The notes beneath the pieces are model-generated. The model made no database searches and had not been told where the DNA came from. It saw only the letters and a list, made by a program, of their open reading frames with translations. Below, one piece after another: positions 21,263 to 60,903 of a DNA stretch of 64,000 bases (position 1 is its first letter; the number at the start of each line of letters is the position of its first letter). This DNA comes from Hongsoonwoonella zoysiae (GTDB taxonomy: Bacteria; Pseudomonadota; Alphaproteobacteria; Rhizobiales; Stappiaceae), in assembly GCF_013266695.1 (NCBI RefSeq), contig NZ_JABRXF010000001.1, positions 2,361,736 through 2,425,735 on the forward strand, read 5' to 3'. A program made the translations under genes and the position numbers.

Positions 21263-21997
21263 ATGGCGGTGAGTACGGTCAAGGGTGCGTTATCGGTGGA
21301 CACAGCTTCGCCGGACGGATCGGCGGTTGACCATGTCGTGCACCAGATTCGCGAGTTGATCGCGCAAGCCGGGCTCAAGGTGGGCGACAGCCTGCCGACC
21401 GAGCGCGAACTTTGCGCGCAGTTCAACGCAAGCCGCAACACGGTTCGCGAGGCGATGCGTATCCTGAAGGCTTACGGGCTGGTGGAGGTTCGCCCGAAGG
21501 TCGGCGCCACGATTACCGACAATCGCATGTCGCGGGCGATCGAGCTGTTTTCCTTTGCCACGATGGAGGTTTCGCGCAAGACCTTCAGCGACGTGCAGGC
21601 GTTCCGTGATCTGCTCGAAGTTGGCTCGGTGGAGCAGCTTTTCGACCGGATTTGCGATCGGGACATAGACGAGCTTCATTCCATCAACGCGAAGCTTGCC
21701 GGCATCCACGATCTGGAGGAGGCTTCGGAGGTCGACTTCGCCTTTCACGTAAGGCTGATCTCGATCCTCGATAATTCCGCAATCCTCGACGTCTATAACG
21801 TCATGAAGCCCATCATTCTGCGCATCATGCAGAAGGGGAAGACCCGCCGCACCTTCAAGACGGAAACCTTCTCCGAACATGAAGGCGTCATAGAGGCCAT
21901 GTCGCACCGGGACCGGCTGTCGTTTCAGTATCGCCTGCGTACCCATCTGATGACGGGCTTCAAATATTTCAACGAGGAGATGGAGGCATCTGCCTGA
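21263..21997 (+). CDS. GntR-family regulator, FadR/FCD subgroup
   Basis: The 244-residue protein has an N-terminal winged helix (about 20-85) with the GntR signature LPTERELCAQFNASRNTVREAMRIL in overlapping parts, and an all-helical FCD effector domain that includes FAFHVRLISI and SEHEGVIEAM with metal/ligand histidines. FCD regulators usually sense organic acids or sugar acids and control the adjacent catabolic operon. The ATG at 21263 has GGAGA 8 nt upstream; a TTG at 21236 is a weaker option. The binding-protein gene of an ABC transporter follows 100 bp downstream, which makes that transporter the first candidate target. Confidence 0.86.
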   Translation: MAVSTVKGALSVDTASPDGSAVDHVVHQIRELIAQAGLKVGDSLPTERELCAQFNASRNTVREAMRILKAYGLVEVRPKVGATITDNRMSRAIELFSFATMEVSRKTFSDVQAFRDLLEVGSVEQLFDRICDRDIDELHSINAKLAGIHDLEEASEVDFAFHVRLISILDNSAILDVYNVMKPIILRIMQKGKTRRTFKTETFSEHEGVIEAMSHRDRLSFQYRLRTHLMTGFKYFNEEMEASA

Positions 21998-43671: not shown

Positions 43672-44541
43672 TCAAGGCTGGGTAACCGTCGGAATTCGCG
43701 GCTCTTTTCCCTTCTGGAGGCGCGAGGCAAGGGCGATTGCCAGCGCCTGCGCAAGGCACATCGGCGCGGCGAGAGAGCGCGAAAATGTGTATTCGTACTC
43801 CGGCACGGAAAACAGAAGATCCGCGTTTTTGGAAAGTGGAGACAGCGTGGAATCGGAAATAGCCAGGATCGGCACACTCCGTCTGGCAGTATCATCCATG
43901 ATGTTGACGACTTCGTTCGCGTAGAAACGGAACGATACCGCAATCAATAAATCCTTATTGGTCGCCAGCTTGGCCCTGTGGGTCGCAAGGCCGCCGCCTT
44001 CACTTAAAAGGACATTTGGTTTACCTAACATCGTCAGGGCGTACTGCAACAGCATCACGATGGGCGCTGAGCGTAACTGACCGATGAGATAGATGGTGTT
44101 CGCCTTTTCCATCATTGCGGCCGCGCGTTGGATTTCCTCTCCGCTGACGTTGCTGAGAAGGTCCTGAAGAGAGGCGATATCGCGCACGACGAGATCCTTC
44201 AGGAAACTGCCCGCGCCTGCCTGGTCCGACCTGACAAGGTCCGTTTCAAGCGCCTTGATCCGCGCCTCGAAACCCGGTGCGGCAGTGGACAGGCGGCGCT
44301 GAAACACGCCTTGAAGCTCCTTGAAACCCTTGTAGCCGAGCGACTGGGCGAAGCGAACGAAGCTTGACGCGTGAATGCCGCGCAGGTCCGCAATCGCATT
44401 TACCGACATGACCGCGACGTCATTGGGGTTTTGCGTCAGGTATTCGGCAATCCGCTGATAGGATTTGCTCATCCCGTCGTATCGCTCATGGATGATGCGG
44501 ATAAGCTCTTCGTAGTCCTTCGGCGGGGTGGCGGTTTCCAT
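43672..44541 (-). CDS. iolR: RpiR/MurR-family regulator with SIS domain
   Basis: The 289-residue protein has an N-terminal HTH_6 domain (about 10-85, including NAIADLRGIHASSFVRFAQSLG in parts) and a phosphosugar-binding SIS domain (about 125-265, with IYLIGQLRSAPIV and LIAVSFRFYANEV). Such proteins control inositol genes in alphaproteobacteria, and iolE and iolD lie directly upstream. The start at 44541 is preferred because the upstream codons run through a perfect palindrome, TGCAAT-N4-ATTGCA, that looks like its own operator. The symbol iolR is by context only. Confidence 0.82.
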   Translation of the reverse strand: METATPPKDYEELIRIIHERYDGMSKSYQRIAEYLTQNPNDVAVMSVNAIADLRGIHASSFVRFAQSLGYKGFKELQGVFQRRLSTAAPGFEARIKALETDLVRSDQAGAGSFLKDLVVRDIASLQDLLSNVSGEEIQRAAAMMEKANTIYLIGQLRSAPIVMLLQYALTMLGKPNVLLSEGGGLATHRAKLATNKDLLIAVSFRFYANEVVNIMDDTARRSVPILAISDSTLSPLSKNADLLFSVPEYEYTFSRSLAAPMCLAQALAIALASRLQKGKEPRIPTVTQP

Positions 44542-44553
44542 AGATCTCTGCCT

Positions 44554-44569
44554 TGCAATTTTTATTGCA
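44554..44569 (-). promoter_or_regulatory. Palindrome TGCAAT-N4-ATTGCA before the RpiR gene
   Basis: A perfect palindrome with 6-bp arms and spacer TTTT lies 13 bp before the regulator start, overlapping its ribosome-binding region. It is the same motif as at 55972-55987, with degenerate copies at 47469, 47498 and 58116. Confidence 0.65.
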
Positions 44570-44659: not shown

Positions 44660-45565
44660 TCAACCGGAAATCACCGTGTATTCCGCAGCGTCTACAACGC
44701 GAAGCAGTTCCTTGTAACCAATTTGAGCCATCTGAAAAGGCGGGCTGATTTTCGGGTCCTGCTCGGCCTCTACGACAAACCAGCCCTGATAGCCGAAAGA
44801 CGCCAGCCGATGGACGATCCGCCCAAAATCGAGATCGCCATCGCCTGGTACCGTAAAGACACCTTTGACCACGGCATCGAGAAAACTGTCCTTTGAACGG
44901 TCGAGCCCGTTCACCACGCTCATCCGAACATCCTTCGTATGAACGTGGCTGATCCGCCGGTGGTGATGGTTGATGACGCGAATGACATCGCCGCCGGCCA
45001 TGGCCATATGCCCGGCATCGTAAAGCAGTTTGACCGCTTCACCGGTCCGGGACAGAAACAAGTCAAGTTCCGGCTCGGTCTCGATCGCTGCTGCCATATG
45101 GTGATGATAGGCGAGCGGCATGCCTTCATCGGCGCACCACTCGGCGAAGGCGGTCATCTTTCGGCCATAGGCTTTCATTTCCTCTTGAGAGAGCTTCGGT
45201 TTCGCCGCAAGCGGCTTTGTCCGATCGCCCTGGATTGAGCATGCCGTCTCGCCGTAGACGATGCAGGGCGCATTCGCCGCGATGAAGAAGTCCATCTGCT
45301 CGCGAATGCGATCCTTCTCTTCCTCGATATCTCCATCAAGAAGCAGGCCCGAGAACCAGCCTCCGCATACCGACATCCCGTATTTCTTCAGGATAGGCCC
45401 GAGTTCCGACATGTTCATCGGGAAGCGGCGCCCGGTTTCCATGCCGGTAAATCCCGCTTCGGATGCCTGGCGCAGACATTCCTCAAGGCTCACGTCGTCT
45501 GAAAGTTCCTCAAGATCGTCGTTCCACCATGCGATGGGTGCGATACCCAGCCTTGCCTTGAGCAT
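44660..45565 (-). CDS. iolE: IolE, myo-inosose-2 dehydratase
   Basis: The 301-residue TIM-barrel enzyme of the xylose-isomerase-like superfamily begins LKARLGIAPIAWWNDD, the typical IolE start. It has TGMETGRRFP, LAYHHHMAAAIE, LLYDAGHMAMAGGD and ISHVHTKDVR, which hold the metal ligands. It dehydrates scyllo-inosose to 3D-trihydroxycyclohexane-1,2-dione. The start ATG 45565 lies 5 bp downstream of the iolD stop. Confidence 0.94.
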   Translation of the reverse strand: MLKARLGIAPIAWWNDDLEELSDDVSLEECLRQASEAGFTGMETGRRFPMNMSELGPILKKYGMSVCGGWFSGLLLDGDIEEEKDRIREQMDFFIAANAPCIVYGETACSIQGDRTKPLAAKPKLSQEEMKAYGRKMTAFAEWCADEGMPLAYHHHMAAAIETEPELDLFLSRTGEAVKLLYDAGHMAMAGGDVIRVINHHHRRISHVHTKDVRMSVVNGLDRSKDSFLDAVVKGVFTVPGDGDLDFGRIVHRLASFGYQGWFVVEAEQDPKISPPFQMAQIGYKELLRVVDAAEYTVISG

Positions 45566-45570
45566 GATCG

Positions 45571-47430
45571 TCAAACTCCAACGCGTTGCCTGCTTCGGAT
45601 TTCCTGCTGATGCGCCCGCGCGGCCATGACGGTTTCGCGTTCGGAGACTTCAGGCACGCCTACATCCCAGTCCGCATCGCCAGGCACCCAGGCGAAAGCA
45701 TCCGTCGCGATGGACAGGACGGTGGTCCGGTCGTTGCCTTTCGCCCACTCAAGCGCGGCTTCCAGATCTCCGAGGCTTTCACAGTGGCGGCCATAAGCGC
45801 CCATCGCCTCGGCGTGTTTGGCGAAATCCACGTGCAACGGATTTTCAGGGTTCCCGATGCGGCAATCCTTGAGCAGGTTGTTGAAACCGGGCGTGCCCTT
45901 GAACTCCTGCAAGCGGTTGATGACCGCAAAACCACCGTTGTCGCAGACGACAACGATCATCTTCTTGCCCGTGAGGACAGAAGAATAAATATCGGAATTC
46001 ATCATCATGTAGGTGCCGTCGCCCAGCATGACGATCGGCGTGCCCTTGCCCTCGTTCGCCATGGCATTTCCCCAGCCGGCTGAAATCTCGTAGCCCATGC
46101 AGGAAAATCCGAACTCCAGATCGAAGGTGTTCGGGTTCTTGACCCGCCACCCCTTCGCGACCTCGCCCGGAATGCCGCCGGCAGCGGCTATGAGGTTGTC
46201 ATTCTCGCCCGCCGCCTTGTTCACGGTTGCTACCACTTGCGCGTAGGTCGGAACTGGAGCGTTGGTCGGCGCCTGGTGCCGGTCGAGCAGTTGATCCCAT
46301 TCCTTGAAGAGCGCCTTTGCCTGTTCCATTCGGGCAGGTGGGGATTTCCAGTTACCAAGCGCGTCCTCGATTTCGACGACAGCCTCCAGCGCATCGCCCA
46401 CGACCGAAAGCGCCCGATGTTTGGTGGCATCGAAGCGCGCCGCGTTGATCGAGATGAAACGCGCATTCGGGGCAAAGGCCGTCCAAGAGCCTGTCGTGAA
46501 ATCCTGCAAGCGCGTGCCGACGGCAAGGATGACATCCGCATCGCCGGCTAGCGCGTTCGCCGAGGTCGAGCCGATGATGCCGATGGGCCCGGCGTGAGCC
46601 GGATGATAATGTGTCAGCGTTCCCTTGCCGGCGATCGTTTCGACAATGGGAATTCCCCGCTCGACGGCGAATTTCGCAAGCGTTTCCTCGGCGCCTGAGT
46701 AACGCACACCGCCGCCTGAGATGATCAGCGGCTTCCTTGCGTTCTTCAACAATTCAACCGCTTGCGCCACGCGCTGCCGGTCGGGGCGCGGGCGCGGAAT
46801 GGTCCAGACTTTCGGTTCGAAGAAAACTTCCGGATAATCGAAGGCCACTTCCTGGGTGTCCTGGCAAAGGCCGATGAAGGCAGGGCCGCAGTCGGCCGGA
46901 TCGAGCATCGTGGCAATGGCTTGCGGTAAGGAAGAAATGATCTGTTCCGGCAGGGTGATCCTGTCCCAATAGCGCGACACCGCCTTGAAAGCGTCGTTTA
47001 CCGTCGTGGTCGGATTGCCGAAATGTTCGACTTGCTGCAGCACCGGGTCGGGAACGCGGTTGGCGAAAGTATCTCCGGCCAGGATCAGAACAGGTAGCCG
47101 GTTGGCATGGGCCGTGCCGGCGGCGGTCACCATGTTCAGCGCGCCGGGGCCGATGGAGGAGGTGGCCACCATAATCTGGCGGCGGCGCTTTGCCTTGGCG
47201 AAGCCGATCGCGGCCAGCGCCATGGATTGTTCGTTCTGGCCGCGCCATGTGGGCAGGCGGTCCTGCACGGCTTCGAGGGCTTCGGACAGGCAAGTGACGT
47301 TACCATGCCCGAAGATGCCGAAGACGCCGGCAAAAAGCGGCACGCGTTCGCCATCGATCTCGGTGAACTGGTTGCACAGGTATTTGACCAAAGCCTGGGC
47401 CATGGTCAGACGGATGGTCGCCTGCGGCAT
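45571..47430 (-). CDS. iolD: IolD, trihydroxycyclohexane-1,2-dione hydrolase
   Basis: The 619-residue thiamine-diphosphate enzyme opens the dione ring to 5-deoxy-glucuronate. N-terminal LFAGVFGIFGHGNVTCL (about 24-40), a central domain with PLIISGGGVRYSGAE, and the TPP/Mg motif GDGTYMMMNSDIYS near residue 475 are visible. Length and domain order (PYR, middle, PP) fit IolD. It leads the minus-strand iolD-iolE unit. The divergent promoter region upstream carries two copies of the degenerate inositol-cluster palindrome. Confidence 0.95.
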   Translation of the reverse strand: MPQATIRLTMAQALVKYLCNQFTEIDGERVPLFAGVFGIFGHGNVTCLSEALEAVQDRLPTWRGQNEQSMALAAIGFAKAKRRRQIMVATSSIGPGALNMVTAAGTAHANRLPVLILAGDTFANRVPDPVLQQVEHFGNPTTTVNDAFKAVSRYWDRITLPEQIISSLPQAIATMLDPADCGPAFIGLCQDTQEVAFDYPEVFFEPKVWTIPRPRPDRQRVAQAVELLKNARKPLIISGGGVRYSGAEETLAKFAVERGIPIVETIAGKGTLTHYHPAHAGPIGIIGSTSANALAGDADVILAVGTRLQDFTTGSWTAFAPNARFISINAARFDATKHRALSVVGDALEAVVEIEDALGNWKSPPARMEQAKALFKEWDQLLDRHQAPTNAPVPTYAQVVATVNKAAGENDNLIAAAGGIPGEVAKGWRVKNPNTFDLEFGFSCMGYEISAGWGNAMANEGKGTPIVMLGDGTYMMMNSDIYSSVLTGKKMIVVVCDNGGFAVINRLQEFKGTPGFNNLLKDCRIGNPENPLHVDFAKHAEAMGAYGRHCESLGDLEAALEWAKGNDRTTVLSIATDAFAWVPGDADWDVGVPEVSERETVMAARAHQQEIRSRQRVGV

Positions 47431-47468
47431 GAAGCTCCTCCCTGCGTAAATATGAAATATTTACCGCA

Positions 47469-47484
47469 TGAAATGATTATTGAC
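47469..47484 (-). promoter_or_regulatory. Degenerate TGCAAT-N4-ATTGCA copy, iolD side
   Basis: TGAAAT-GATT-ATTGAC matches the palindrome in ten of twelve arm bases. It lies 38 bp before iolD in the 192-bp region shared with the divergent aldehyde dehydrogenase gene. Confidence 0.5.
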
Positions 47485-47497
47485 AATCAGCATTGTT

Positions 47498-47513
47498 AGC
47501 AACGAAAATTGTC
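47498..47513 (+). promoter_or_regulatory. Degenerate TGCAAT-N4-ATTGCA copy shared with 58116
   Basis: AGCAAC-GAAA-ATTGTC is followed by AATT. The copy at 58116-58131 reads ATCAAT-GAAA-ATTGTC, also followed by AATT, so the two sites share a 14-bp block, GAAAATTGTCAATT, and are more alike than the motif alone requires. Confidence 0.5.
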
Positions 47514-47622
47514 AATTGCAGGCAGGCGATATTGATTGCCGATCTAACGCAGCGAAGGTGGAAATGAAACGCAGCCCGCCAAGGGGCCCATGCCCTTTCG
47601 GTGCGGAACGGCCGGGTGTGTC

Positions 47623-49059
47623 ATGTATCGAAATTTCGGACTTTTCATCGACGGAGAGTGGCGCGAGGCCGTGGGTGGGGCGTGCGCCAACGTGATCAGC
47701 CCGGTGACGGAACAGCCTCTTGGTGCCGCCCCGCAAGCGGCAAGGGAAGATACCGAAGCCGCACTCGCGGCGGCGGAAAAGGGTTTTGCGACATGGCGAG
47801 CGATGCCGGCATTTTCGCGGGCTGATGCCCTTCACCGGATCGCCGATGAAATGATCGCCCGAGCCGACGAGGCAGCGCGGGTGATCTCTTCGGAGACCGG
47901 CAAGCCTCTGGTGCAGGCCGGGAGAGAATGGGGTCTGTCGGTCGACCAGTTCCGCTGGTACGCCGAAGAGGCGCGCCGCATATACGGTCGCATCGTCGAA
48001 AGCCGCGTGCCTGGAGGGCGTTTTGAGGTCCACCGCGAACCGGTCGGCATCGTGGCGGCCTTCACGGCATGGAATTTTCCCGCCGCCCTTATCGCACGCA
48101 AGGTCGCACCGGCGCTTGCGGCGGGTTGCGCGGTTATCATTCGCCCTTCGAGGCAGACCCCCGGCACGGCGATGGTGATGGTCGACTGCATGCGTGCAGG
48201 CGAGCTGCCTGACGGCACTGTCAACCTCGTCGTCGGTTCCACGGACAATACCTACGCGCCGATCATGGCTTCAAAGGCGGTACGCAAGGTTTCGCTCACC
48301 GGTTCGACGCGTGTGGGCCAGCAGATGATCCGCGATGCCGCAGACACCATGAAGAAGGTATCGATGGAGCTTGGTGGCAACGCCCCTTGCATCATCTACG
48401 ACGATGCGGATCTTGAAGCCGCGCTCGATGTCTGCGTTCCGACCAAATTCGCCAATTGCGGCCAGGTTTGCGTCACGCCGGATCGCTTCTATGTCCACGA
48501 AAGCCGGCATGACGCCTTTATCGAAGGCTTTGTGAAGAGGGCGGAAAAAATAAAGCTCGGTGACGGGCTGGATGAAACGTTCGGCATGGGACCGCTTATA
48601 AATGGCAGGCGCGTTGAGGAAATCGAGGCGGTTGTCGAAAGCGCGGTGAGTGCTGGCGCAAAAATCGCGGCCGGCGGCAAACGACCTGCCGAGTTCAACT
48701 CCGGGCACTTCTTCGAACCGACCGTGCTCACCGATGTGACCGATGACATGAAGGTTATGGCGGAAGAAAACTTCGGGCCGATAGCCGCAATCGCTCTGTT
48801 CTCCTCGGATGACGAAGTTTTGGGACGCGCGAATGCAACCGACATGGGGCTCGCGGCTTATGCCTTTACCGCATCCGCGAAACGGGCGCGGCGCACGGTG
48901 GAAGAGCTCAAGTCCGGCATGGTGGGGATCAACAGCTTCGCGCTTGCTGCGGCCGAAGCGCCCTTCGGCGGAACCAGGCTCTCAGGCATGGGCCGGGAAG
49001 GCGGCACCGAAGGTATTGGCGATTATCTCGACGTCAAACTCTCTCAAACCGTTTTTTGA
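47623..49059 (+). CDS. NAD(P)-dependent aldehyde dehydrogenase (succinate-semialdehyde dehydrogenase-like)
   Basis: The 478-residue enzyme has AWNFPAALIARKVAPALAAG in parts near residue 148, FTGST-type LTGSTRVGQQM near 224, the general base in SMELGGNAPC near 249 and the nucleophile segment NCGQVCVTPDRF near 283. It is closest in form to succinate-semialdehyde/glycolaldehyde dehydrogenases, and it lacks the features of CoA-acylating methylmalonate-semialdehyde dehydrogenase (IolA). It starts a four-gene operon divergent from iolD. The ATG at 47623 has no strong ribosome binding site; 11 more codons upstream are open. Confidence 0.9.
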   Translation: MYRNFGLFIDGEWREAVGGACANVISPVTEQPLGAAPQAAREDTEAALAAAEKGFATWRAMPAFSRADALHRIADEMIARADEAARVISSETGKPLVQAGREWGLSVDQFRWYAEEARRIYGRIVESRVPGGRFEVHREPVGIVAAFTAWNFPAALIARKVAPALAAGCAVIIRPSRQTPGTAMVMVDCMRAGELPDGTVNLVVGSTDNTYAPIMASKAVRKVSLTGSTRVGQQMIRDAADTMKKVSMELGGNAPCIIYDDADLEAALDVCVPTKFANCGQVCVTPDRFYVHESRHDAFIEGFVKRAEKIKLGDGLDETFGMGPLINGRRVEEIEAVVESAVSAGAKIAAGGKRPAEFNSGHFFEPTVLTDVTDDMKVMAEENFGPIAAIALFSSDDEVLGRANATDMGLAAYAFTASAKRARRTVEELKSGMVGINSFALAAAEAPFGGTRLSGMGREGGTEGIGDYLDVKLSQTVF

Positions 49060-49067
49060 GGCCTGTG

Positions 49068-49874
49068 ATGCTCACGAACCCGCTAAAGCAAAAATGGGAA
49101 AAGGGGCAACCGACCATCAATGGCTGGTGCTCCATCGGCAACCCGTTCACCGCCGAAATCATGGCCGCACAGGGCTATGACTCGGTTTCGATAGATATCC
49201 AGCATGGCGCGCTGGATTACTCTGCGGCTCTGCCGATGCTTCAGGCGATGAGGGCATCCGGCGCAGTGCTGATGGCGCGCGTGCCCTGGCTTGACCCTTC
49301 CGCAATCATGAAGGCGCTCGATGCCGGCGCCATGGGCATCATCTGTCCGATGATAAACAACGCCGAGCAGGCGGCCGAATTCGTCAGCTATATGCGCTAT
49401 CCCCCTGACGGCCAACGAAGTTTCGGCCCGACGCGCGCGAACTTCGCCATGAAAGGATACGGCGTTCAGGTGAATGAGGCGGTTCTGGCATTTGCCATGA
49501 TCGAGACCGCGCAGGGCATGAATAACCTTGAGGAAATTGCCTCGACACCCGGCCTTGACGGAATTTATGTGGGTCCGGCGGACCTTGCCCTGGGCGTAAC
49601 CGAGGGGCGGCTTGCACCCGGTTTCGACCGTGAGGAGGAGGAGATGGTTGCCGCGATCCGGCGCATCGCGGACGTTTGCAAGGCCAAAGGCATCTATGCC
49701 GCACTGCATTGCGGGACGCCGGACTATGCCGCAAAGGCAATCGGCTGGGGGTACAACATGACCACGGTTTCCGCCGACGCGCGCCTTCTGGCGGCCGCTG
49801 CAAGTGTTTCCGTGGCGAGGTTTCGCGAGCTTACAGGCACTTCCGCGAAAAGTCGCGAGAAGGGAAGCTACTGA
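49068..49874 (+). CDS. HpcH/HpaI-family aldolase
   Basis: The 268-residue class II aldolase has DIQHGAL (His46), RVPW (Arg71), IETAQG (metal ligand Glu146) and GPADLALG (Asp172). It cleaves 4-hydroxy-2-oxo acids to pyruvate plus an aldehyde or semialdehyde. GAGG lies 7 nt before the ATG. It sits 8 bp after an aldehyde dehydrogenase gene and its stop overlaps the next start (TGATG), so aldolase and both dehydrogenases are made together. It differs from the aldolase at 265-1029 in the substrate-facing segment DIQHGAL versus DTEHSP. Confidence 0.9.
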   Translation: MLTNPLKQKWEKGQPTINGWCSIGNPFTAEIMAAQGYDSVSIDIQHGALDYSAALPMLQAMRASGAVLMARVPWLDPSAIMKALDAGAMGIICPMINNAEQAAEFVSYMRYPPDGQRSFGPTRANFAMKGYGVQVNEAVLAFAMIETAQGMNNLEEIASTPGLDGIYVGPADLALGVTEGRLAPGFDREEEEMVAAIRRIADVCKAKGIYAALHCGTPDYAAKAIGWGYNMTTVSADARLLAAAASVSVARFRELTGTSAKSREKGSY

Positions 49875-50836
49875 TGCCGCATGTTCTCGTTGTGGGGAAA
49901 ATCCATGCCTCCGGCATCCAAATCCTGGAAGATGCGGCCGATTTCACCTTCGAAACTGTCGATGGGACTTCGGAAGAAAGCTACGCGACGCCCCTTCCCA
50001 AGGCCGACGCCCTCATCATTCGCACGCAGCCCCTGACCGCGCCGACCATCGCCAGGGCGGAACGCCTGAAAGTCGTCGCGCGTCACGGTGTCGGATATGA
50101 CTCGGTCGACGGGGAGGCCCTGGCGCAGCGCGGCATCCCGCTGGTCGTGGTGGGCGATGTCAATTCGATATCGGTGGCCGAGCATTCCCTGATGATGATG
50201 CTTGCGGCAACGAAGCTTGCCATTCGCTCCGATGCAGCGGTGCGCAATAATAATTGGTCCTGGCGCAACAACCTCGAAGCCTGCGAACTTGCGGCCAAGA
50301 ACCTGCTTGTTTTGGGGTATGGCCGCATTGGGCGGCGCGTTGGTGCATTGGCATCGGCTTTCGCAATGAGGGTTCGCGCATATGATCCCTACCTTGCCGC
50401 GAAAGGGTGGCCTGAAGGGGCTGTAAGTTGCGTAAAAACGCTGGAAGAAGGACTGGCCTGGGCGGACGTGGTTTCGGTTAACGCACCGAAAGCTGATCGC
50501 CCGTTGATCGGGCAAAAGGAACTGGCTGCCATAAAGCCGGGGGCCGTTTTGGTGAACACGGCGCGGGGAGGGATTGTCGAGGAAGACGCGCTGATTGCCG
50601 CGCTGCAGGACGGTAGGCTGCGGGCGGCCGGGCTCGATGTTTTCGAGGACGAACCGCCAGCACCTGAAAACCCGTTGCTGAAGATGGATAATGTTGTTCT
50701 GTCGCCGCACATCGGCGGATTGACGCGCGAAGGCGGAGAACGCCTGGCAGTTCATTCAGTCCGCAATGTCATCGATTTTTTCGCGGGCCGCCTCGATCCG
50801 GAGCTTGTTGTGAACGGGGTGGTCCCTAAGGGATAG
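49874..50836 (+). CDS. D-2-hydroxyacid dehydrogenase (SerA-like)
   Basis: The 320-residue NAD-dependent enzyme of the D-isomer-specific family has NAD-binding GYGRIGRRVG near residue 150, the catalytic arginine in NTARGG, the glutamate in DVFEDEPP and the histidine in LSPHIGG. It lacks the C-terminal ACT domain of long SerA proteins. It probably interconverts a 2-oxo acid such as hydroxypyruvate or tartronate semialdehyde with a D-hydroxy acid produced by the aldolase upstream; the substrate is inference. The ATG overlaps the aldolase stop. Confidence 0.9.
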   Translation: MPHVLVVGKIHASGIQILEDAADFTFETVDGTSEESYATPLPKADALIIRTQPLTAPTIARAERLKVVARHGVGYDSVDGEALAQRGIPLVVVGDVNSISVAEHSLMMMLAATKLAIRSDAAVRNNNWSWRNNLEACELAAKNLLVLGYGRIGRRVGALASAFAMRVRAYDPYLAAKGWPEGAVSCVKTLEEGLAWADVVSVNAPKADRPLIGQKELAAIKPGAVLVNTARGGIVEEDALIAALQDGRLRAAGLDVFEDEPPAPENPLLKMDNVVLSPHIGGLTREGGERLAVHSVRNVIDFFAGRLDPELVVNGVVPKG

Positions 50837-50922
50837 CGCAGGCACATCGTGAGCCGGTAGCAACGGCGATGCAACGCGGGTGGCCCAATCTTGCGGATGT
50901 CCATAAAGCCGGGAGGGCTGTC

Positions 50923-51936
50923 ATGTTGAAGATTGCGGTACTTGGTTGCGGGCGGATCGGAGTTATGCACGCGGCGAACGTGAACGCGCATCCGCATGCC
51001 GAACTGGCGGGCGTCTTTGATATCAATTCGGTGGCCGCGGAAAATTGCGGGTCGGCACATGGCGTCAGGGTCTTCAAGTCGGCGGACGAAGTGTTTGCCA
51101 GTCCGGATGTGGACGCTGTTCTGATCGCCACGGCGACCAGCACGCATTCCGATTATATCGAAGCCGCGGTTCGGGCTGAAAAGCCGGTGCTTTGCGAAAA
51201 GCCGATCGACCTCGATCTCAAGCGGGTCGAACTTTGCAAGAGCCGGATTGGCGATACCTCTCTGCCCATCATGCTGGGGTTCGTGCGCCGGTTCGACCCC
51301 GGCCACCGCGCCGCGCGACAGGCGTTTCTGGACGGCGAGATCGGGAACCTGCACCAGGTTGTCATCACCTCGCGCGATCCGGGAATGGCGCCTGATGCAT
51401 ATATCGAAGCGTCAGGCGGAATTTTCCGCGACATGACGATCCACGATTTCGACCTCGCGCGCTTTATGCTCGGTGAAGAAATCGAAACCGTCTCCGCCAC
51501 GGGATCGCGCCTTGTCGACCCGGCGTTGATGGAAAAATGCAACGACTACGACACGGTGGTCGCGGTGCTTGTCACGAAAAGCGGCAGGCAGGCGGTCATC
51601 ACGAATTCTCGGGAAGCGGCCTACGGTTACGATCAGCGTGTCGAGCTTTTCGGCAGCAAGGGGATGGTCGTTTCCGAAAACCGGCGCATGAACCATGTAA
51701 CGAAGCACGTGAAGGATGCGACGAACGTCTCCGCGCCGCTTCTCAACTTCTTCATCGAACGATATGCGGAGGCGTTTAACGCCGAAATCGGCCATTTCGT
51801 CGATGTTGTTGAAAACGGGGCACTTTTGGAAGTCGGTTTCGAAGATGGCCGGCTTGCCCTGATATTGGCGGAAGCTGCATTCAAGTCGATTGCGGAGGGG
51901 CGGGCGGTCAGGATCGCCGAGATCGCACGATCCTGA
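50923..51936 (+). CDS. iolG: Inositol 2-dehydrogenase-like Gfo/Idh/MocA protein
   Basis: The 337-residue dehydrogenase begins LKIAVLGCGRIGVMHAANV. It has the lysine motif CEKPIDLDL near residue 92, GFVRRFDPGH near 123 and the D-x3-H catalytic pair in FRDMTIHDFDLARFMLGEE near 165-180, the pattern of IolG. It would oxidise myo-inositol to scyllo-inosose, the substrate of IolE. GGGAGG is placed 6 nt before the ATG. It is the last gene of the four-gene operon. Two other Gfo/Idh genes lie nearby, so the exact inositol isomer each one handles is open. Confidence 0.83.
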   Translation: MLKIAVLGCGRIGVMHAANVNAHPHAELAGVFDINSVAAENCGSAHGVRVFKSADEVFASPDVDAVLIATATSTHSDYIEAAVRAEKPVLCEKPIDLDLKRVELCKSRIGDTSLPIMLGFVRRFDPGHRAARQAFLDGEIGNLHQVVITSRDPGMAPDAYIEASGGIFRDMTIHDFDLARFMLGEEIETVSATGSRLVDPALMEKCNDYDTVVAVLVTKSGRQAVITNSREAAYGYDQRVELFGSKGMVVSENRRMNHVTKHVKDATNVSAPLLNFFIERYAEAFNAEIGHFVDVVENGALLEVGFEDGRLALILAEAAFKSIAEGRAVRIAEIARS

Positions 51937-51957: not shown

Positions 51958-53040
51958 TCAAAACACCAGCCGGCGATCGGTTCTCGGGATATGCCGCACC
52001 ATCTCCGGCATCGGGTGAGAGGGGCGCGGCGGTGTGTCTATTTTCTGAGGCTTGCCGGTGGCGGCCGCTCGCTCGATGGCAAGCATGGCGCGAACGTCGG
52101 CCAGGCCTTCCTCACCATCAGGCTCCGGCCTGACGCCGTTGAGGATGCAATCGGAGAAATACGCCGTCTGACCGCCGAAGTGATCCACCGAAGGCGAAGG
52201 CTTTTCCAATACGACAACTTCGTCCTGCCGCAGGCGCAGGTTGGTATCCGTTTCGAAACGGAAGCCCGGTTCGAGCGTGATTTCCCCCTTCGTGCCGACG
52301 ACGCGATAGGTGTCGAGCGTATCGGCGCCGAAGCTTGCGACGAACTGAGCGAGACGTCCCCCGGGAAAGCGGAGCGTGACGGCGATGGCTTCCTCGACTT
52401 CGTCGAAACGCGGATCATTGTCGCCACTACCTTTCATGGCGATCGCCTCGACCGGCTCGGCCGCGAAGACATGCCGCGCTGCATTGAGGCAATAAACGCC
52501 AATGTCCTGAAGCGGCCCGCCCCAGTGTTCGGCCTTTAGCCGGTGGTTGCTTGCCGTCGCCTGATAGGAAAAGATGGAAGTGAAGATGCGCGGGTCGCCG
52601 ATCTTGCCGTTGCGGATTTGCTCCAGCACCTCGATTGTTCCCGGGTCCGTGTGGAGCCTGTAGGCCGTCATCAGGAAGACGCCCGCTTCATCTGCGGCGG
52701 CGATCATCGCCTCGCATTCCTCGACTGTTATGGCAAGGGGCTTTTCGACCAGGACATGCTTGCCGGCCCTGGACGCACGGATCGCATAGTCCGCATGCAA
52801 TGAATTGGGGAGGGCGATATAGACGGCGTCGACGATGTCGGCGGCCAGCATCTCCTCATAGCGTTCATAGGCAAATACATGCTCGATGCCGTAGAAATCC
52901 GCGAGCTTCGCGGCATTCGCGGCATTGCCGGTGACGATTGCCGTCATCTCGGAATTGCCGGTCTGCGCGACCGAAGGCAAGAAAGCTTCCTGGGAAATCC
53001 ATCCGGCGCCGACAACGGCGTAGCGTATCTTCTTCATCAA
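51958..53040 (-). CDS. Gfo/Idh/MocA-family oxidoreductase
   Basis: The 360-residue protein starts IRYAVVGAGWISQEAF and has VEKPLAITVEE near residue 95 with the conserved lysine. The C-terminal half shows DIGVYCLNAARHVF near 180, the form seen in cytosolic glucose-fructose-oxidoreductase relatives. It lies 57 bp after the binding-protein gene of the transporter and behind that gene's terminator, so it may be expressed by read-through. It converges on the iolG-like gene with 21 bp between stops. Confidence 0.88.
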   Translation of the reverse strand: MMKKIRYAVVGAGWISQEAFLPSVAQTGNSEMTAIVTGNAANAAKLADFYGIEHVFAYERYEEMLAADIVDAVYIALPNSLHADYAIRASRAGKHVLVEKPLAITVEECEAMIAAADEAGVFLMTAYRLHTDPGTIEVLEQIRNGKIGDPRIFTSIFSYQATASNHRLKAEHWGGPLQDIGVYCLNAARHVFAAEPVEAIAMKGSGDNDPRFDEVEEAIAVTLRFPGGRLAQFVASFGADTLDTYRVVGTKGEITLEPGFRFETDTNLRLRQDEVVVLEKPSPSVDHFGGQTAYFSDCILNGVRPEPDGEEGLADVRAMLAIERAAATGKPQKIDTPPRPSHPMPEMVRHIPRTDRRLVF

Positions 53041-53097: not shown

Positions 53098-54090
53098 TTA
53101 CTGCGCAAGGCAGCTGTCGACGTTGTCAGGGGTGCAGACGTCGAGGCCGGTGTAGATCGGATCGTCGACCGATTTGCCTTCCGCCAGATCCTTCAGCACG
53201 AACATCGCACGATACCCCATTTCAAACGGGCGCTGGCCAACCTGACCGTTTGACAGGCCGTCTTTCAATTGGGCCATCTGCATGGGAAGCGTATCAGCCA
53301 CGATGATGGACATTTCGCCGGACGCCATCTTGTCCTGATAAGGTTCGGCGGCCTGACGATAGGCGTTGTCGAACCACTGGGTAAAGGCGCCAGTTGAAAT
53401 GAACGCGGTCAAATCGGCTTCCTTGGCCAGGATATCGGTCATACCCTGAATCGCCTTGTTGCCATCATCATCTGTAATGAGCGGGCAGCCGGCAACCTCG
53501 GTCCATCCGTTTTCTCCGCTAAGCGGTTCGCCCGGAGGTGTGCCCATGTCTTTGCCGGCAAGCGTGTCGCGAATGCCCTTCAGGCGTTCGTTGTGGTTGG
53601 CGGCCGCCGCACCGCCGGTTTGCAAGCAGACCTTGCCGCCGTCCGGATGCCGCTCCATCGCAATTTTCGCCAGGTTTACGCCGATATCGTAGTTCTTCGT
53701 TCCGACGAAGGTGGCGCGGATTCCCTTGTCCTCCTCAAGCAGGTCCGCATCCCAGGTCATTACCGGAATGCCTGCGTCGACAGCCGCCTTCAGGGCCTTG
53801 CCCATGGCGGGCGCGTTCGACGGCGAGACGGCTATCCCGTCCACGCCCTGGCTGATCAGGTCCTGAACGATCTGGATTTGCTCAAGCTCCGTATGCTCGC
53901 CCGGCCCGATATAGTTGCAGGTTACGCCTTCGAGTTCTTCCTGAGCCTTGTAGCAACCGTCGCGTGCCAGGTCGAAGAATGGATTGTTCATCGCCTTCGG
54001 TACGAGCGCGAAATTATAGTCGGCGGCAAGGGCGCCGGCAGCCGGCAGCGTTACGGCCGCCATGATTGCTGCACACATCAGTTTCTTCAT
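53098..54090 (-). CDS. Sugar/polyol ABC transporter substrate-binding protein
   Basis: The 330-residue protein has a signal peptide (about 1-22, ending in ALA) and a type I RbsB-like fold: YNFALVPKAMNNPFFD, GVDGIAVSPSNAPAM, MTWDADLLEE, and QTGGAAAANHNERLKGIRD. Internal cysteine pairs (GCYKAQEELEGVTC, about residues 46-59) suggest a periplasmic disulfide. It is the third gene of the ATPase-permease-binding protein unit. Its position next to iol genes suggests inositol or an inositol derivative as ligand (inference). Confidence 0.9.
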   Translation of the reverse strand: MKKLMCAAIMAAVTLPAAGALAADYNFALVPKAMNNPFFDLARDGCYKAQEELEGVTCNYIGPGEHTELEQIQIVQDLISQGVDGIAVSPSNAPAMGKALKAAVDAGIPVMTWDADLLEEDKGIRATFVGTKNYDIGVNLAKIAMERHPDGGKVCLQTGGAAAANHNERLKGIRDTLAGKDMGTPPGEPLSGENGWTEVAGCPLITDDDGNKAIQGMTDILAKEADLTAFISTGAFTQWFDNAYRQAAEPYQDKMASGEMSIIVADTLPMQMAQLKDGLSNGQVGQRPFEMGYRAMFVLKDLAEGKSVDDPIYTGLDVCTPDNVDSCLAQ

Positions 54091-54133
54091 GATGGTCTCC
54101 TCCCATTTGGTTTGAAGGCGCGGATGGTTCTTC

Positions 54134-55150
54134 TCAAGACCTGCCGCGATTGCGGATCTGTTCCAGAAGCACAGCCAGGATCAGGAACAGACCAACGAAG
54201 AACTGCTGCCAAAGGGCGTCGATACCGGCGAGCAGTAGGCTGTTACGGATAAGTTCCATGAGAGCGGCGCCGATCGGCGCGCCGAAGGCGTAGACCACGC
54301 CTCCCATAAGGTTTGCGCCCCCGATGACGGTCGCTGCGATGACGTTGAGTTCGTACGTCAGGCCGAGCGCATTGGTCACGGATCCGAACCAGCCAACCAG
54401 CAGGAAGGCGGCCAGACCCGCGCAACATGAGCACAGCACATAGACGGAGACGATCACGCGCTCGACCGGTATGCCGGCAAGCTTTGCGGCATCCGCGTTG
54501 CCGCCGATCGCGATGACCCAGCGGCCCCAGGTCGAGTAGCGCCATACCCACCAGAACACCACGGTCAGGATCATGAGGACCCACACGGGATTGGGGACGC
54601 CGAACACGCTCTCGCCGCCGATCCATTCGAAGAGGTCCTGATCGGGGCCGAAGTCGTAGATCATCTTGTTGTTGGAGATGACCATCGCGATGGAGCGGGA
54701 CATCGCCAGCATCCCGAGCGTCACGACGAATGGCGCCATTCTGAGATATGCGATCAGCACGCCGTTGACGAGCCCGACGATGGCGGCCGCCCCCATGCAG
54801 GCGATAAAACCGAACCCGATGCCGTAACCGGCCTGCATGACGAGGCCGGTAACGATGCCGGCGAGGCCCATCAGCGAGCCGACCGAAAGATCGATCCCGG
54901 CGGTGCAGATCACCGCGGACATTCCAAGCGCCATGATGCCGAAAAAGGCGAAATTCCGGGTAATGTTGAAAAAATTGCGCTCTGTAAGGAAGACGTCCGA
55001 GACGAAGCTCATGACGACACCGATCGCGATAATCGCTACGAACACCCAGAACGGCTGGGTTTTCAACGCTGCCTGCAGCCCCGACATCTCCTGACGAGAA
55101 GTGATGCTTTCATCGATCTCGGCGTGCGATTTCTGCGTCGTGTCGGTCAT
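54134..55150 (-). CDS. Sugar/polyol ABC transporter permease (RbsC/FrcC type)
   Basis: The 338-residue BPD_transp_2 permease has about nine helices with VICTAGIDLSVGSLMGL, FWWVWRYSTWGRWVIAIGGN in parts, and TVIGGANLMGGVVYAFGA. The N-terminal 28 residues are polar and cytoplasmic. Its ATG overlaps the ATPase stop by four bases. A single permease gene implies a homodimeric channel. Confidence 0.93.
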   Translation of the reverse strand: MTDTTQKSHAEIDESITSRQEMSGLQAALKTQPFWVFVAIIAIGVVMSFVSDVFLTERNFFNITRNFAFFGIMALGMSAVICTAGIDLSVGSLMGLAGIVTGLVMQAGYGIGFGFIACMGAAAIVGLVNGVLIAYLRMAPFVVTLGMLAMSRSIAMVISNNKMIYDFGPDQDLFEWIGGESVFGVPNPVWVLMILTVVFWWVWRYSTWGRWVIAIGGNADAAKLAGIPVERVIVSVYVLCSCCAGLAAFLLVGWFGSVTNALGLTYELNVIAATVIGGANLMGGVVYAFGAPIGAALMELIRNSLLLAGIDALWQQFFVGLFLILAVLLEQIRNRGRS

Positions 55151-55887
55151 GCGTTCTCAATCGCCCCCGTAATCAGCCCCGTGACTTCCTCCGGGCTCGT
55201 TGCGTTGATTTGCTTGTCGGCGACCTTGGCGCCGCGGCGCAGGACCGCTACGCGGTCGCAAACCTCGAAGACGTCCGGCATACGGTGCGAAACCAGAATG
55301 ACCGCGTGGCCCGAATCCTTGAGGCGATGGATAAGGTTCAGGACCTCGGCGACCTGGCGGACCGATATCGCCGCCGTCGGCTCGTCCATGAGGACAAGTT
55401 TCGGATCGGACAGGCGGGTTCGGGCGATCGCCACGGCTTGGCGCTGGCCGCCGGACATCTGCTTCACGAGATCGCGCGGCCGGGTTTCGGACTTGAGTTC
55501 CCGAAAGAGTTCACCGGCCTTTTCAAACATCGCCTTATGGTCGAGATAGCTGATCGGGCCGAATTTCTTGCGGATTTCCCTGCCGAGAAAGACGTTTGCA
55601 GCTGCGGTGAGGTTGTTGCAAAGCGCAAGATCCTGATAGACGATCTCGATACCGTTGTTGCGCGCGTCAACCGGCTTGTTGAAATGCACTTCAGAGCCGT
55701 TGATCATGATCTTTCCCGCCGTCGGCAGGAAATTCCCGGCGATAATGCGCATCAATGTCGACTTGCCGGCGCCATTGTCGCCCATTAGCCCGACAGCTTC
55801 GCCCTCGCTGATTGTCATGTCGATGCCCTGAAGGGCGTGGATCGCACCAAAACTCTTCGTAACGCCTTTAAGCTCAAGCAGGCTCAC
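55147..55887 (-). CDS. ABC transporter ATP-binding protein, single domain (FrcA-like)
   Basis: The 246-residue ATPase has Walker A GDNGAGKST (36-44), Q-loop VYQDLALCNNL, signature MSGGQRQAVAIAR near 146, Walker B LVLMDEPTAAI and switch histidine VSHRMPDV. Ribose-type systems normally use a 500-residue double ATPase; this single-domain form is like FrcA of the rhizobial fructose transporter. It is the first gene of the minus-strand unit and faces the SDR gene across a 209-bp promoter region with a perfect inositol-cluster palindrome. Confidence 0.92.
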   Translation of the reverse strand: MSLLELKGVTKSFGAIHALQGIDMTISEGEAVGLMGDNGAGKSTLMRIIAGNFLPTAGKIMINGSEVHFNKPVDARNNGIEIVYQDLALCNNLTAAANVFLGREIRKKFGPISYLDHKAMFEKAGELFRELKSETRPRDLVKQMSGGQRQAVAIARTRLSDPKLVLMDEPTAAISVRQVAEVLNLIHRLKDSGHAVILVSHRMPDVFEVCDRVAVLRRGAKVADKQINATSPEEVTGLITGAIENA

Positions 55888-55971: not shown

Positions 55972-55987
55972 TGCAATAATCATTGCA
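55972..55987 (-). promoter_or_regulatory. Palindrome TGCAAT-N4-ATTGCA between transporter and SDR genes
   Basis: A perfect copy with spacer AATC lies 84 bp before the ATPase start and 109 bp before the SDR start. A further AATTGTCAATT block, as found beside the copies at 47498 and 58116, lies at 55998-56008. Confidence 0.65.
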
Positions 55988-58008: not shown

Positions 58009-58366
58009 CTGCGAGGTTTCCCGTATCTGGGCGTGGGGCCGACAGGCTCCCGTCGGCCCTGTCTGCCTGCCAGCACTTCGGATCGGATATGGATAGTAAG
58101 GCCAATTGGCTGATAATCAATGAAAATTGTCAATTTTTAAACTTCTCAATAAACTATTTTTTCTGCTTTTTATGCGCTGCGCGCCCAGGAGCGTGGACTA
58201 TCCCGCAATGATCATTAGGGAGTTGATCACGTGGCGCAGGAATAAGCCTTTGTGTCAATGGACGCGGCTGTGAGCTTTCTTGTCACCGCGAAAAGCGGCT
58301 GCCGTTTGCGGCGCCAGCTTCGCGCGGGTAAGCTTTGGCCGAGGCCGACATTGCGCGAGAGGGCCC
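58009..58366. other. Divergent intergenic region between inositol dehydrogenase and cyclase genes
   Basis: No gene is supported in these 358 bp. The half near the dehydrogenase carries the degenerate operator at 58116-58131. The central part, around 58130-58170, is AT-rich and a likely place for promoters in both directions. A short ATGATCAT palindrome is near 58208. GAGAGGG at 58357-58363 is the ribosome binding site of the cyclase gene. Confidence 0.5.
58116..58131 (-). promoter_or_regulatory. Degenerate TGCAAT-N4-ATTGCA copy before the inositol dehydrogenase gene
   Basis: ATCAAT-GAAA-ATTGTC keeps the CAAT-N4-ATTG core and is followed by AATT, as at 47498. It lies 107 bp before the dehydrogenase start. 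Confidence 0.5.
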
Positions 58367-60058
58367 ATGTCCGTGGATGACAGCGTTTCCCGCTTCGATA
58401 AGCGGAACGAAGACAACGCTCAAACGCTTTCGGACCGTTATGCGCTCGTAAGCGAGGCCATTTCGGAAGGGATTTACGACTGGAATATTTCCAGCGGAGA
58501 ACTTCATGTGTCCGGTCGGCTCAATGCCATTGTCGGTTTTGGAGAGCGGGCGCTGACGGCGGAAGATTGGAACAGGCGCATCCATCCGCAGGATTTCGAC
58601 GGATACAAGGCAGCCATCATCGAGCACATCAGGGGTATTTCGGATCGCATGCGCGCGGAATATCGGTTGCGGCGCCCGATCGGCGACTACATTTGGGTGG
58701 CTGACAATGGCCGTTGCATCCGCCAGGACAATGGAGAAGCGGTTCGGCTTATCGGCGCAATCCGCGACATCACTTCGCGCAAGCTGGCGGAAACCCATCT
58801 GAAGGACGCGCAACGGAAAGCGGAACAAGCGAGCCAGAACCTGCTCGATGCCATAGAATCCATATCGGAAGGTATCGTCCTGTTCGACGCGGACGATCGC
58901 GTTGTCCTGTGCAATTCCAACTACCGGCAATATTTCGCGAGGGCAGCCAACGCTGAAGTGGCCGCCATGGTCGAGCCCGGCGCGGTTTTCTGGGACATCA
59001 TCAGAGCTGCATATGAAGCCGGCATGCTTCCGCTTATCGACGAGAAGGGCGGGATCGAAAACTATATCGAAATGCGTAAGCGCATTCGTAAAGGTACGCA
59101 GGAACCGATCGAACAATTGCTGTCTGACGGGACCTGGCTCCAGATAAACGAACACAAGACGAGTGCCGGCGGCATTGCTTCGGTCTATACGGACGTCACT
59201 GAATTGAAGAAACGCGAAGTCGAAGCATTCTCGAAGACAGAAATGCTTGAGTCGCTATCATCCCGCTTGTCGAAATATCTTTCGCCGCAGATCTATTCTT
59301 CCATTTTTTCCGCGCCGCAAAATGTAGAGATTGCTCCGAAGCGAAAGAAGCTGACCGTGTTCTTTTCCGATATCGTCGGCTTCACGGCACTGGTCGATGC
59401 GCTGGAGTCCGAACAGCTGACCGAATTGCTGAACCAGTATTTGACGGAAATGTCGAAGGTGGCCGTGGAGCATGGCGCAACGGTCGACAAGTTCATAGGT
59501 GATGCCGTCGTGGCGTTCTTCGGTGATCCGGTTTCCAGGGGCGTAGAGCGCGACGCGACTGCCTGCGTGACCATGGCTATGGAAATGCAATCAAAGCTCG
59601 GCGAGCTGGCTTCCAAATGGAACGACAGGGGAATCGATAAAGAATTCAAGCTGCGGATTGGTATCGCGACGGGATATTGCACTGTCGGTAATTTCGGGAG
59701 CGAGGATCGGCTGGACTATACGGCGATCGGCAGCCCGGTAAATCTGGCTGCGCGCCTTCAGCAGCATGCCCCGGCGGGTGAAATCCTGCTCGACAATGAG
59801 ACTTACCATCTTGTCAGGCAAGCGATTGGAGATGCGAGGAAGACGGAATTTAAGCCCAAAGGCTTTTCCAAGAGCGTGAGGGCGTATCAAATCAAGCCGT
59901 CAGGCGTGGGATGCGAAGATATTGCTCGTCTCGAAACTCCCGGAATTAGCATTAGGGTTCAAAAGTCCGTACTTTCACGATCTGACCGGGAAGAAGCGGT
60001 TCGTTCTCTGGAAAGCGCAATCGAGCACATAAGGGGGGCCGGTAAAGCCCGGCCATGA
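58367..60058 (+). CDS. PAS-PAS class III adenylate/guanylate cyclase
   Basis: The 563-residue protein is soluble, without membrane segments or signal peptide. It has a first PAS domain with a PAC tail (about 20-135, ending IRDITSRKLAE), a second PAS (about 150-285), a short coiled linker (KTEMLESLSSRLSKYLSPQIY) and a class III nucleotidyl cyclase domain (about 320-490). The metal aspartates are in VFFSDIVGFTAL and FIGDAVVAFFGD, and the transition-state pair is in PVNLAARLQ. It should make cAMP (or cGMP) in response to a PAS-bound signal. The ATG at 58367 follows GAGAGGG; an upstream in-frame start adds 29 unlike residues. Confidence 0.92.
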   Translation: MSVDDSVSRFDKRNEDNAQTLSDRYALVSEAISEGIYDWNISSGELHVSGRLNAIVGFGERALTAEDWNRRIHPQDFDGYKAAIIEHIRGISDRMRAEYRLRRPIGDYIWVADNGRCIRQDNGEAVRLIGAIRDITSRKLAETHLKDAQRKAEQASQNLLDAIESISEGIVLFDADDRVVLCNSNYRQYFARAANAEVAAMVEPGAVFWDIIRAAYEAGMLPLIDEKGGIENYIEMRKRIRKGTQEPIEQLLSDGTWLQINEHKTSAGGIASVYTDVTELKKREVEAFSKTEMLESLSSRLSKYLSPQIYSSIFSAPQNVEIAPKRKKLTVFFSDIVGFTALVDALESEQLTELLNQYLTEMSKVAVEHGATVDKFIGDAVVAFFGDPVSRGVERDATACVTMAMEMQSKLGELASKWNDRGIDKEFKLRIGIATGYCTVGNFGSEDRLDYTAIGSPVNLAARLQQHAPAGEILLDNETYHLVRQAIGDARKTEFKPKGFSKSVRAYQIKPSGVGCEDIARLETPGISIRVQKSVLSRSDREEAVRSLESAIEHIRGAGKARP

Positions 60059-60216: not shown

Positions 60217-60903
60217 ATGCCGCAATTCGTTATCGAACAACCGCCTGCTGTCGCGATTCCGGTCGCGGGAACCAAGGCGCTTTTCCCCGTGCGCCGGGTC
60301 TATTGCATAGGGCGGAATTACGCCGCGCACGCTATCGAAATGGGGCACGATCCGGACCGGGAGCCGCCGTTTTTCTTTCAGAAGAACCCGGACAATCTTA
60401 ACCCGTCCGGCGAGTTTCCGTACCCGCCAAAGACCTCCGATGTCCATCATGAAGTGGAGATGGCGGTTGCGCTGAAAAGCGGGGGGCGGAACATCGCATT
60501 GGACGATGCGCTAAACCATGTCTTCGGCTATGGCCTGGCGCTCGATATGACCCGCCGCGACTTGCAGGGCGAAGCCAAGAAGCTCGGCCGTCCCTGGGAG
60601 ATCGGCAAGGCGTTCGAGCAGTCGGCGCCGGTCGGGCCTCTTCACCCTGTATCCGAAGTCGGGCATCCCGATAGCGGGCGCGTCGAACTCAGGATCAACG
60701 GACAGGTACGGCAGGAAGGCGACCTCAATCAGATGATCTGGAAAGTTCCGGAGATGATCTCGTATCTTTCGGAGTATTTCGAGCTGGCGGCGGGAGATAT
60801 CATTCTTTCGGGCACGCCGTCCGGCGTGAGAGCGGTGACGAAAGGTGATGTGATTGAAGTTTCGATTGAAAGCCTCGGAAGCATGACAGTCAAGGTGGTC
60901 TGA
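60217..60903 (+). CDS. Fumarylacetoacetate hydrolase family protein
   Basis: The 228-residue protein has the FAH-fold motifs RVYCIGRNYAAHAIEMG (about 27-43), the metal ligands in HHEVEMAVAL near residue 75, GYGLALDMTRRDLQ near 105 and LSGTPSGVRAV near 200. The family includes 2-keto-3-deoxy-acid dehydratases/hydrolases, acylpyruvate hydrolases and oxaloacetate decarboxylases. It needs Mg or Mn and acts in the cytoplasm. CGGAGG stands 7 nt before the ATG. It may act with the downstream transporter or the aldolases of the inositol cluster; this is not shown. Confidence 0.9.
   Translation: MPQFVIEQPPAVAIPVAGTKALFPVRRVYCIGRNYAAHAIEMGHDPDREPPFFFQKNPDNLNPSGEFPYPPKTSDVHHEVEMAVALKSGGRNIALDDALNHVFGYGLALDMTRRDLQGEAKKLGRPWEIGKAFEQSAPVGPLHPVSEVGHPDSGRVELRINGQVRQEGDLNQMIWKVPEMISYLSEYFELAAGDIILSGTPSGVRAVTKGDVIEVSIESLGSMTVKVV

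Follow-up and report, generated by a model that had tools for sequence, protein, structure and literature searches.

A second inositol unit in Hongsoonwoonella zoysiae with a possible phosphate-free oxidative ending

How might a bacterium complete the breakdown of inositol from a gene cluster that encodes IolG, IolE and IolD and lacks the isomerase, kinase and aldolase that usually follow them? The question is raised by a 64,000-nucleotide stretch of the Hongsoonwoonella zoysiae genome (G000:C1:2361736-2425735, hereafter the window; genomes, contigs and loci carry our working numbers). Here a gene for an RpiR-family regulator, iolE and iolD lie on the minus strand, and genes for an aldehyde dehydrogenase (ALDH), an HpcH/HpaI-type aldolase (HpcH) and a D-2-hydroxyacid dehydrogenase (HADH) diverge from them on the plus strand together with iolG, as follows (window positions).

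43672–44541, minus strand: RpiR-family regulator (HTH_6 and SIS domains); the open reading frame extends to 44598, and the ATG at 44541 is the presumed start.
44660–45574, minus strand: iolE, inosose dehydratase, type C (TIGR04379, 389 bits against a cut-off of 290).
45571–47430, minus strand: iolD, trihydroxycyclohexane-1,2-dione hydrolase, type C (TIGR04377, 822 bits against 715).
47623–49059, plus strand: ALDH (Pfam Aldedh; best NCBIfam model SSADH, 483 bits against a cut-off of 646).
49068–49874, plus strand: HpcH/HpaI class II 2-oxoacid aldolase (Pfam HpcH_HpaI).
49874–50836, plus strand: HADH, PGDH-like, with one domain pair (Rossmann domain pair).
50923–51936, plus strand: iolG, inositol 2-dehydrogenase (TIGR04380, 395 bits against 355).

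The initial annotation had described this divergent arrangement, and its gene calls were confirmed at these positions, with IolG, IolE and IolD all above the curated NCBIfam cut-offs. The ALDH is not called an SSADH because its score falls short of that model's cut-off, and the aldolase likewise lies below threshold for the HpaI equivalog model TIGR02311 (150 bits against 369). The start of the HADH gene overlaps the HpcH stop codon (TGATG). The set resembles the canonical myo-inositol route (IolG-IolE-IolD-IolB-IolC-IolJ, or its IolC-DUF2090 variant) in IolG, IolE and IolD, in the adjoining RpiR regulator and in the ABC transporter, but ALDH, an HpcH-type aldolase and HADH stand where that route has IolB, IolC and a phospho-aldolase. 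iolB, iolC and the aldolase gene had been regarded as missing, which holds for the window, within which no match to the IolB or IolC models was found, and not for the genome, where every such match lies outside the window.

We propose, at a confidence that comes close to even, that these genes constitute a second, separately regulated unit for inositol or one of its isomers, in which an oxidative, phosphate-free branch drains the IolD product in place of IolB, IolC and the phospho-aldolase. That this would be an undescribed proteobacterial branch, free of kinase and dehydratase, which proceeds by double oxidation (at C1 and C2) and an HpcH aldolase with hydroxypyruvate as donor and can replace IolB-IolC-IolJ, is suggested more tentatively. 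The gene identities, the conserved operon and the putative common operator are read from the DNA; each catalytic step after IolD, and the isomer that serves as substrate, we infer. The cyclitol would be taken up through the ABC transporter, oxidised by IolG and then dehydrated by IolE, and ring opening by IolD would give 5-deoxy-D-glucuronate. C1 of this compound is an aldehyde and C6, which adjoins a CH2 group, an acid; HADH would have nothing to oxidise in it before C1 is itself an acid, and would therefore act after ALDH. Oxidation of the C1 aldehyde by ALDH would yield 5-deoxy-D-glucarate, in which C2 becomes that of a D-configured 2-hydroxy acid; oxidation of its C2 hydroxyl by HADH would give 3,4-dihydroxy-2-oxohexanedioate, a 2-oxo-4-hydroxy acid that HpcH could use, and thus no dehydratase would be needed. 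The HpcH-type aldolase would cut this product at C3-C4 to release hydroxypyruvate and malonate semialdehyde.

The residues of the three enzymes were compared with those of their relatives. The window ALDH retains the catalytic Cys and Glu, whereas the positions aligned with Arg282 and Ser445 of Escherichia coli GabD, which we take to bind substrate (an assumption for which our literature search gave no support), are both Ala; the two residues are lost in 52 and 53, respectively, of 53 ALDHs. In HADH, R231, E260 and H279, presumably the Arg/Glu/His triad of D-2-hydroxyacid dehydrogenases, are conserved in at least 95% of 66 sequences. The aldolase shares Pfam HpcH_HpaI and five residues with HpcH/HpaI, GarL and YfaU and with the hydroxyketoacid aldolase SwHKA; these residues (D43, H46, R71, E146 and D172), which we assume to be catalytic or metal-binding, are conserved in 106 of 106 sequences. 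Its closest solved relatives are SwHKA chains, and PMC10099721 describes SwHKA structures with hydroxypyruvate. According to a review (PMC7610986), hydroxypyruvate was accepted by 19 of 571 screened enzymes, and an active-site Phe plays a role. His214 of the window aldolase aligns with the SwHKA Phe that contacts C3 of hydroxypyruvate, a match derived from the chain numbering, and is kept in 105 of 106 relatives; GarL and YfaU have Leu at this position.

The module recurs well beyond H. zoysiae. Among 397 genomes of the same order scanned with the window HpcH, 62 matched at an E-value of 1e-50, and the surroundings of 40 were fetched. In 19 of these 40, an HpcH of at least 56% identity lies with cluster partners; 18 of the 19 have IolD or IolE in the stretch, 16 have HADH and 15 have ALDH. 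A further scan, the named scan, took the best 80 loci, 46 of which hold IolD or IolE of the window kind, HpcH being present by construction; its loci overlap with those of the 397-genome scan (Acuticoccus G206 is L196). These 46 named loci contain IolD (43), HADH (42), IolE (39), SDR (36), GfoX (35), ALDH (33), RpiR (31) and IolG (26), with canonical IolC in three and canonical IolB in one. Gene order is likewise preserved: of the 33 named loci that have IolD and a long enough flank, 32 place HADH immediately 3′ of HpcH and 27 place ALDH immediately 5′ of it, and the order is identical in the copies on plasmids of Acidiphilium, Rhizobium and Pantoea. Open reading frames were called by GC position in part of the genome comparisons, and these calls are rough. 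Carriers, among them many bacteria of soil and water, were found in Hyphomicrobiales, Rhodobacterales-type bacteria, Acetobacteraceae, Enterobacterales and Marinobacterium. The window cluster is no accident.

The window genes also appear to be controlled together. The palindrome GCAAYGANNATTGC is found at three promoters, those of iolD/ALDH, of rpiR and of the ABC transporter genes, which follow a Gfo/Idh/MocA gene 3′ of iolG. The sites and these further genes are listed below.

44555–44568, minus strand: putative operator GCAATAAAAATTGC, one mismatch, 14 bases before the presumed rpiR ATG.
47499–47512, plus strand: putative operator GCAACGAAAATTGT, within the divergent iolD/ALDH promoter region (47431–47622).
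51958–53040, minus strand: Gfo/Idh/MocA oxidoreductase, Gfo6-like; an orthologue occurs in six of the 46 named loci, and the gene is part of some related clusters.
53098–55887, minus strand: ABC sugar uptake genes for a binding protein (53098–54090), a permease (54134–55150) and an ATPase (55147–55887).
55973–55986, minus strand: putative operator GCAATGATTATTGC, perfect (0 mismatches), upstream of the ABC transporter operon.

ABC transporter genes adjoin the cluster in G041 and G206 as well. In the congener G041, where the divergent iolD/ALDH region was footprinted by sequence, sites are present at all three corresponding places, with that before rpiR at L047:4351, that before the ABC transporter at L047:17000, and the middle one at two mismatches. 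A relaxed form of the palindrome occurs in 23 of 35 divergent iolD/ALDH (or IolG, HpcH) regions, window included, against a mean of 0.025 in mononucleotide shuffles. In its strict form it was counted 31 times over 792,220 bases of IolD loci, with 22 of these occurrences between iolD and the divergent gene. Across the window itself, GCAAYGANNATTGC gives six matches at no more than one mismatch, at five places, against 0.98 expected by chance; two of these places are inside genes. GAAATATTT has matches not only in the iolD/ALDH region but also at 21962 and 23526/23527. From these distributions the window genes would seem to form one regulon, separate from the canonical one, which the local RpiR protein probably regulates by binding the palindrome.

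The initial annotation had favoured another chemistry, in which the ALDH product 5-deoxyglucarate is dehydrated to 4-hydroxy-2-oxohexanedioate and HpcH cuts this into pyruvate and malonate semialdehyde. In such a scheme HADH would reduce a side product. Classic HpcH, GarL and YfaU enzymes do use 2-oxo-3-deoxy acids, as judged from family names and E. coli annotation, and pyruvate carboxylase genes, which would suit pyruvate as a product, lie near five of 65 cluster loci, including that of Rhizobium daejeonense (L229:13003-16437). IolE-like TIM-barrel proteins (c22), found in 16 of the 46 named loci, could be dehydratases, but c22 is not in the window. Searches with single queries at an E-value of 1e-12 returned no relatives of MR/MLE, RhmD, DapA-type or enolase proteins in the 65 cluster loci (IlvD/Edd, GarD and other dehydratase families were not tested). 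The FAH-family protein at 60217, which had been put forward as the dehydratase, has no relative in any of the other 64 cluster loci, and was rejected. Moreover, the scheme leaves without a role an HADH that adjoins HpcH in 32 of 33 loci, and we regard it as rather unlikely. The suggestion of a non-phosphorylative oxidase–aldolase route gains from the conserved iolD/iolE partnership, from the common promoter region and palindrome, and from complete modules in at least two lineages without IolB or IolC over cut-off, whereas its dehydration step calls for an enzyme that was not found conserved.

In the proposed double-oxidation branch, the second oxidation would take the place of the dehydratase, and this sets it apart from the D-glucarate/galactarate and pentose oxidative routes. 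In those routes the sugar acid is oxidised first, a dehydratase acts before cleavage, and the 2-oxo acid is then cut by a class II aldolase; no conserved dehydratase was found with the window unit in the searches above. The inositol route of Thermotoga maritima, which runs via 5-keto-gluconate (IolN/IolO), also has no IolB or IolC and uses other enzymes after inosose; its IolO model matches the window weakly, and the match is to IolE itself.

The window unit is not the only inositol set of its genome. A canonical cluster (L016, G000:C1 ~204–215 kb) encodes IolG, an RpiR protein, an ABC transporter, an IolC-DUF2090 fusion, IolD, IolE and IolB, where IolB scores 351 bits with TIGR04378, above cut-off, and the kinase/aldolase fusion 703 bits with NF047869 against 600; PMC9007349 proposes DUF2090 as a phospho-aldolase. 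A third iol-like cluster (L015, G000:C1 ~7.8–15.7 kb) holds a class II aldolase, IolB (151 bits, sub-threshold), IolC (307 bits, just above cut-off), IolD, an IolE-like protein, two Gfo proteins and a LacI regulator, and sets resembling it occur in other alphaproteobacteria. The window IolD shares about 48% identity with the canonical copy and 54% with the remaining IolD of the genome, and the window IolE is 46% identical to the canonical IolE. Because the canonical and third clusters are present, the window unit is a second, divergent paralogous set, an addition rather than the genome's sole inositol route. Complete iolB, iolC and iolJ genes elsewhere in the genome that are co-regulated with iolDE had been named, together with normal inositol growth of an operon mutant, as the finding that would speak against a separate route; such genes do exist elsewhere, yet a scan of 20 kb of the canonical cluster for the palindrome, with one mismatch allowed, gave no site (operators of other types were not tested). 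Two sites lie in the third cluster, neither at an evident promoter of its own.

The presence of IolB and IolC in the same genome lends itself to a further explanation, that the window IolD and IolE feed these canonical enzymes and that the co-induced ALDH-HpcH-HADH serves some other compound, with HADH as a hydroxypyruvate/glyoxylate reductase and ALDH as a malonate semialdehyde dehydrogenase. HADH does resemble PGDH and GhrB-type reductases. The common divergent operator and the constant linkage argue against such a division of labour, as do genomes in which the complete module occurs in the absence of IolB and IolC, and we consider it improbable. Draft genomes of Acuticoccus kalidii (G206/G428) and Cedecea colo (G441) combine the complete module with the lack of any IolB match and of an IolC above cut-off, absences that are provisional in drafts. 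Among the genomes with window-type HpcH, the window's included, IolB exceeds its cut-off in 18 of 20; the exceptions are G100 and G206, in which IolB has no match, nothing passes the IolC cut-off and the one IolD is of type C. Acuticoccus and Cedecea are two of the six named carriers (of 46) in which IolB does not exceed its cut-off; of the other four, a Pseudorhodobacter metagenome-assembled genome has IolC and no IolB, two others (G400 and G442) have the third-type IolB alone, with IolC at or just below cut-off, and in Brucella oryzae the IolB match is split across two frames and IolC is present.

The window-type IolD falls in a clade of its own, and its co-occurrence with HpcH speaks for the proposed branch. 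In a quick tree of 94 IolDs, the 74 nearest to the window's stand apart from 18 canonical sequences (branch support 100), with the third-type IolD (two rows) beside this type C clade; type C rows were gathered through HpcH neighbourhoods or IolD identity, so that group sizes are no census. Within the 397 genomes, HpcH of at least 58% identity is found in 20 of 33 genomes with an IolD of at least 61%, against six of 364 others (Fisher p 4.5e-20, uncorrected for kinship), and in G329 the type C IolD and HpcH lie on separate contigs. Among HpcH-less type C genomes, an enolase-type gene lies near IolD in two of 13 (G015, G261), and enolase-family genes over the TIGR01060 cut-off lie close to such clusters at L242:4209-5495 and L240:14301-15782. 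G283, also of this group, has DapA-type and FAH-type genes nearby, and at L231:3979-6155, where the cluster lacks HpcH, a DapA-type aldolase/dehydratase gene and an FAH-family gene adjoin iolG and an iolD of type C.

Several observations weigh against the double-oxidation branch. Chemically, a 2-hydroxy acid is oxidised by NAD against the energy gradient, so that the reaction has to be pulled, and the pyruvate carboxylase genes noted above would favour a different product. His214 is not proof of hydroxypyruvate, because the same His occurs in an HpcH relative that adjoins a gene of the MR/MLE (dehydratase) family on a Mesorhizobium loti plasmid (L224:7889-9819); in this orthologue the aldolase is put to a different use. 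ALDH is missing in the clusters of G100, G068, G208 and G135, the best one elsewhere in these genomes being only 40–42% identical, and those of G150, G198 and G100 have no HADH; G100, with neither gene in its cluster and a best ALDH elsewhere of 42%, is itself a genome without IolB and IolC. No HpcH orthologue was found in 13 of the 33 type C genomes, early branches of the clade included. Loss of IolB is not significantly enriched with type C (3/33 against 4/129, p 0.15; 162 IolD genomes, E-value 1e-30), and its absence can have other causes, since G352 has type C IolD and IolE with neither IolB (E-value 1e-30) nor the HpcH module, and three of the four other IolB-less genomes (G112, G327 and G340; L243, L244 and L245) have IolG-IolD-IolE beside an inositol-monophosphatase-family gene. 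Finally, most carriers (40 of 46 named) also keep canonical IolB over its cut-off, and therefore the unit may serve another cyclitol.

This last point leads to an explanation in which the module acts on an isomer or derivative of inositol, D-chiro- or O-methyl-inositol for example; opening of its ring would give a product other than 5-deoxy-D-glucuronate and hence call for other downstream enzymes. The extra Gfo/Idh/MocA, SDR and epimerase-like genes that accompany the clusters and the three different IolD sets of the window's genome are in keeping with it, and the clusters without ALDH or HADH, the type C genomes without HpcH, the pyruvate carboxylase genes and the canonical route of the carriers all keep it alive. 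However, type C is the sole IolD found in G045, G308, G208 and G329, where IolB and IolC are present; its product is therefore probably the canonical one and seems to suit the canonical enzymes. On balance we regard the explanation as unlikely. Downstream of the cluster region, at window positions 58280–60058, lies a gene for an adenylate/guanylate cyclase domain protein with PAS domains.

No paper on an ALDH-HpcH-HADH arrangement with iolD/iolE was found in a literature search limited to open-licence papers. The window unit represents an ending of inositol catabolism that is real, widespread and co-regulated, and undescribed as far as these searches show. Soil and plants are rich in myo-inositol, and the genes from which its breakdown by bacteria is usually predicted are iolB, iolC and iolJ; if the proposed branch is correct, such predictions would have to change to take in a second co-regulated unit that ends differently, and this unit would provide a natural role for hydroxypyruvate-accepting class II aldolases, which have so far been known mainly as synthetic tools.

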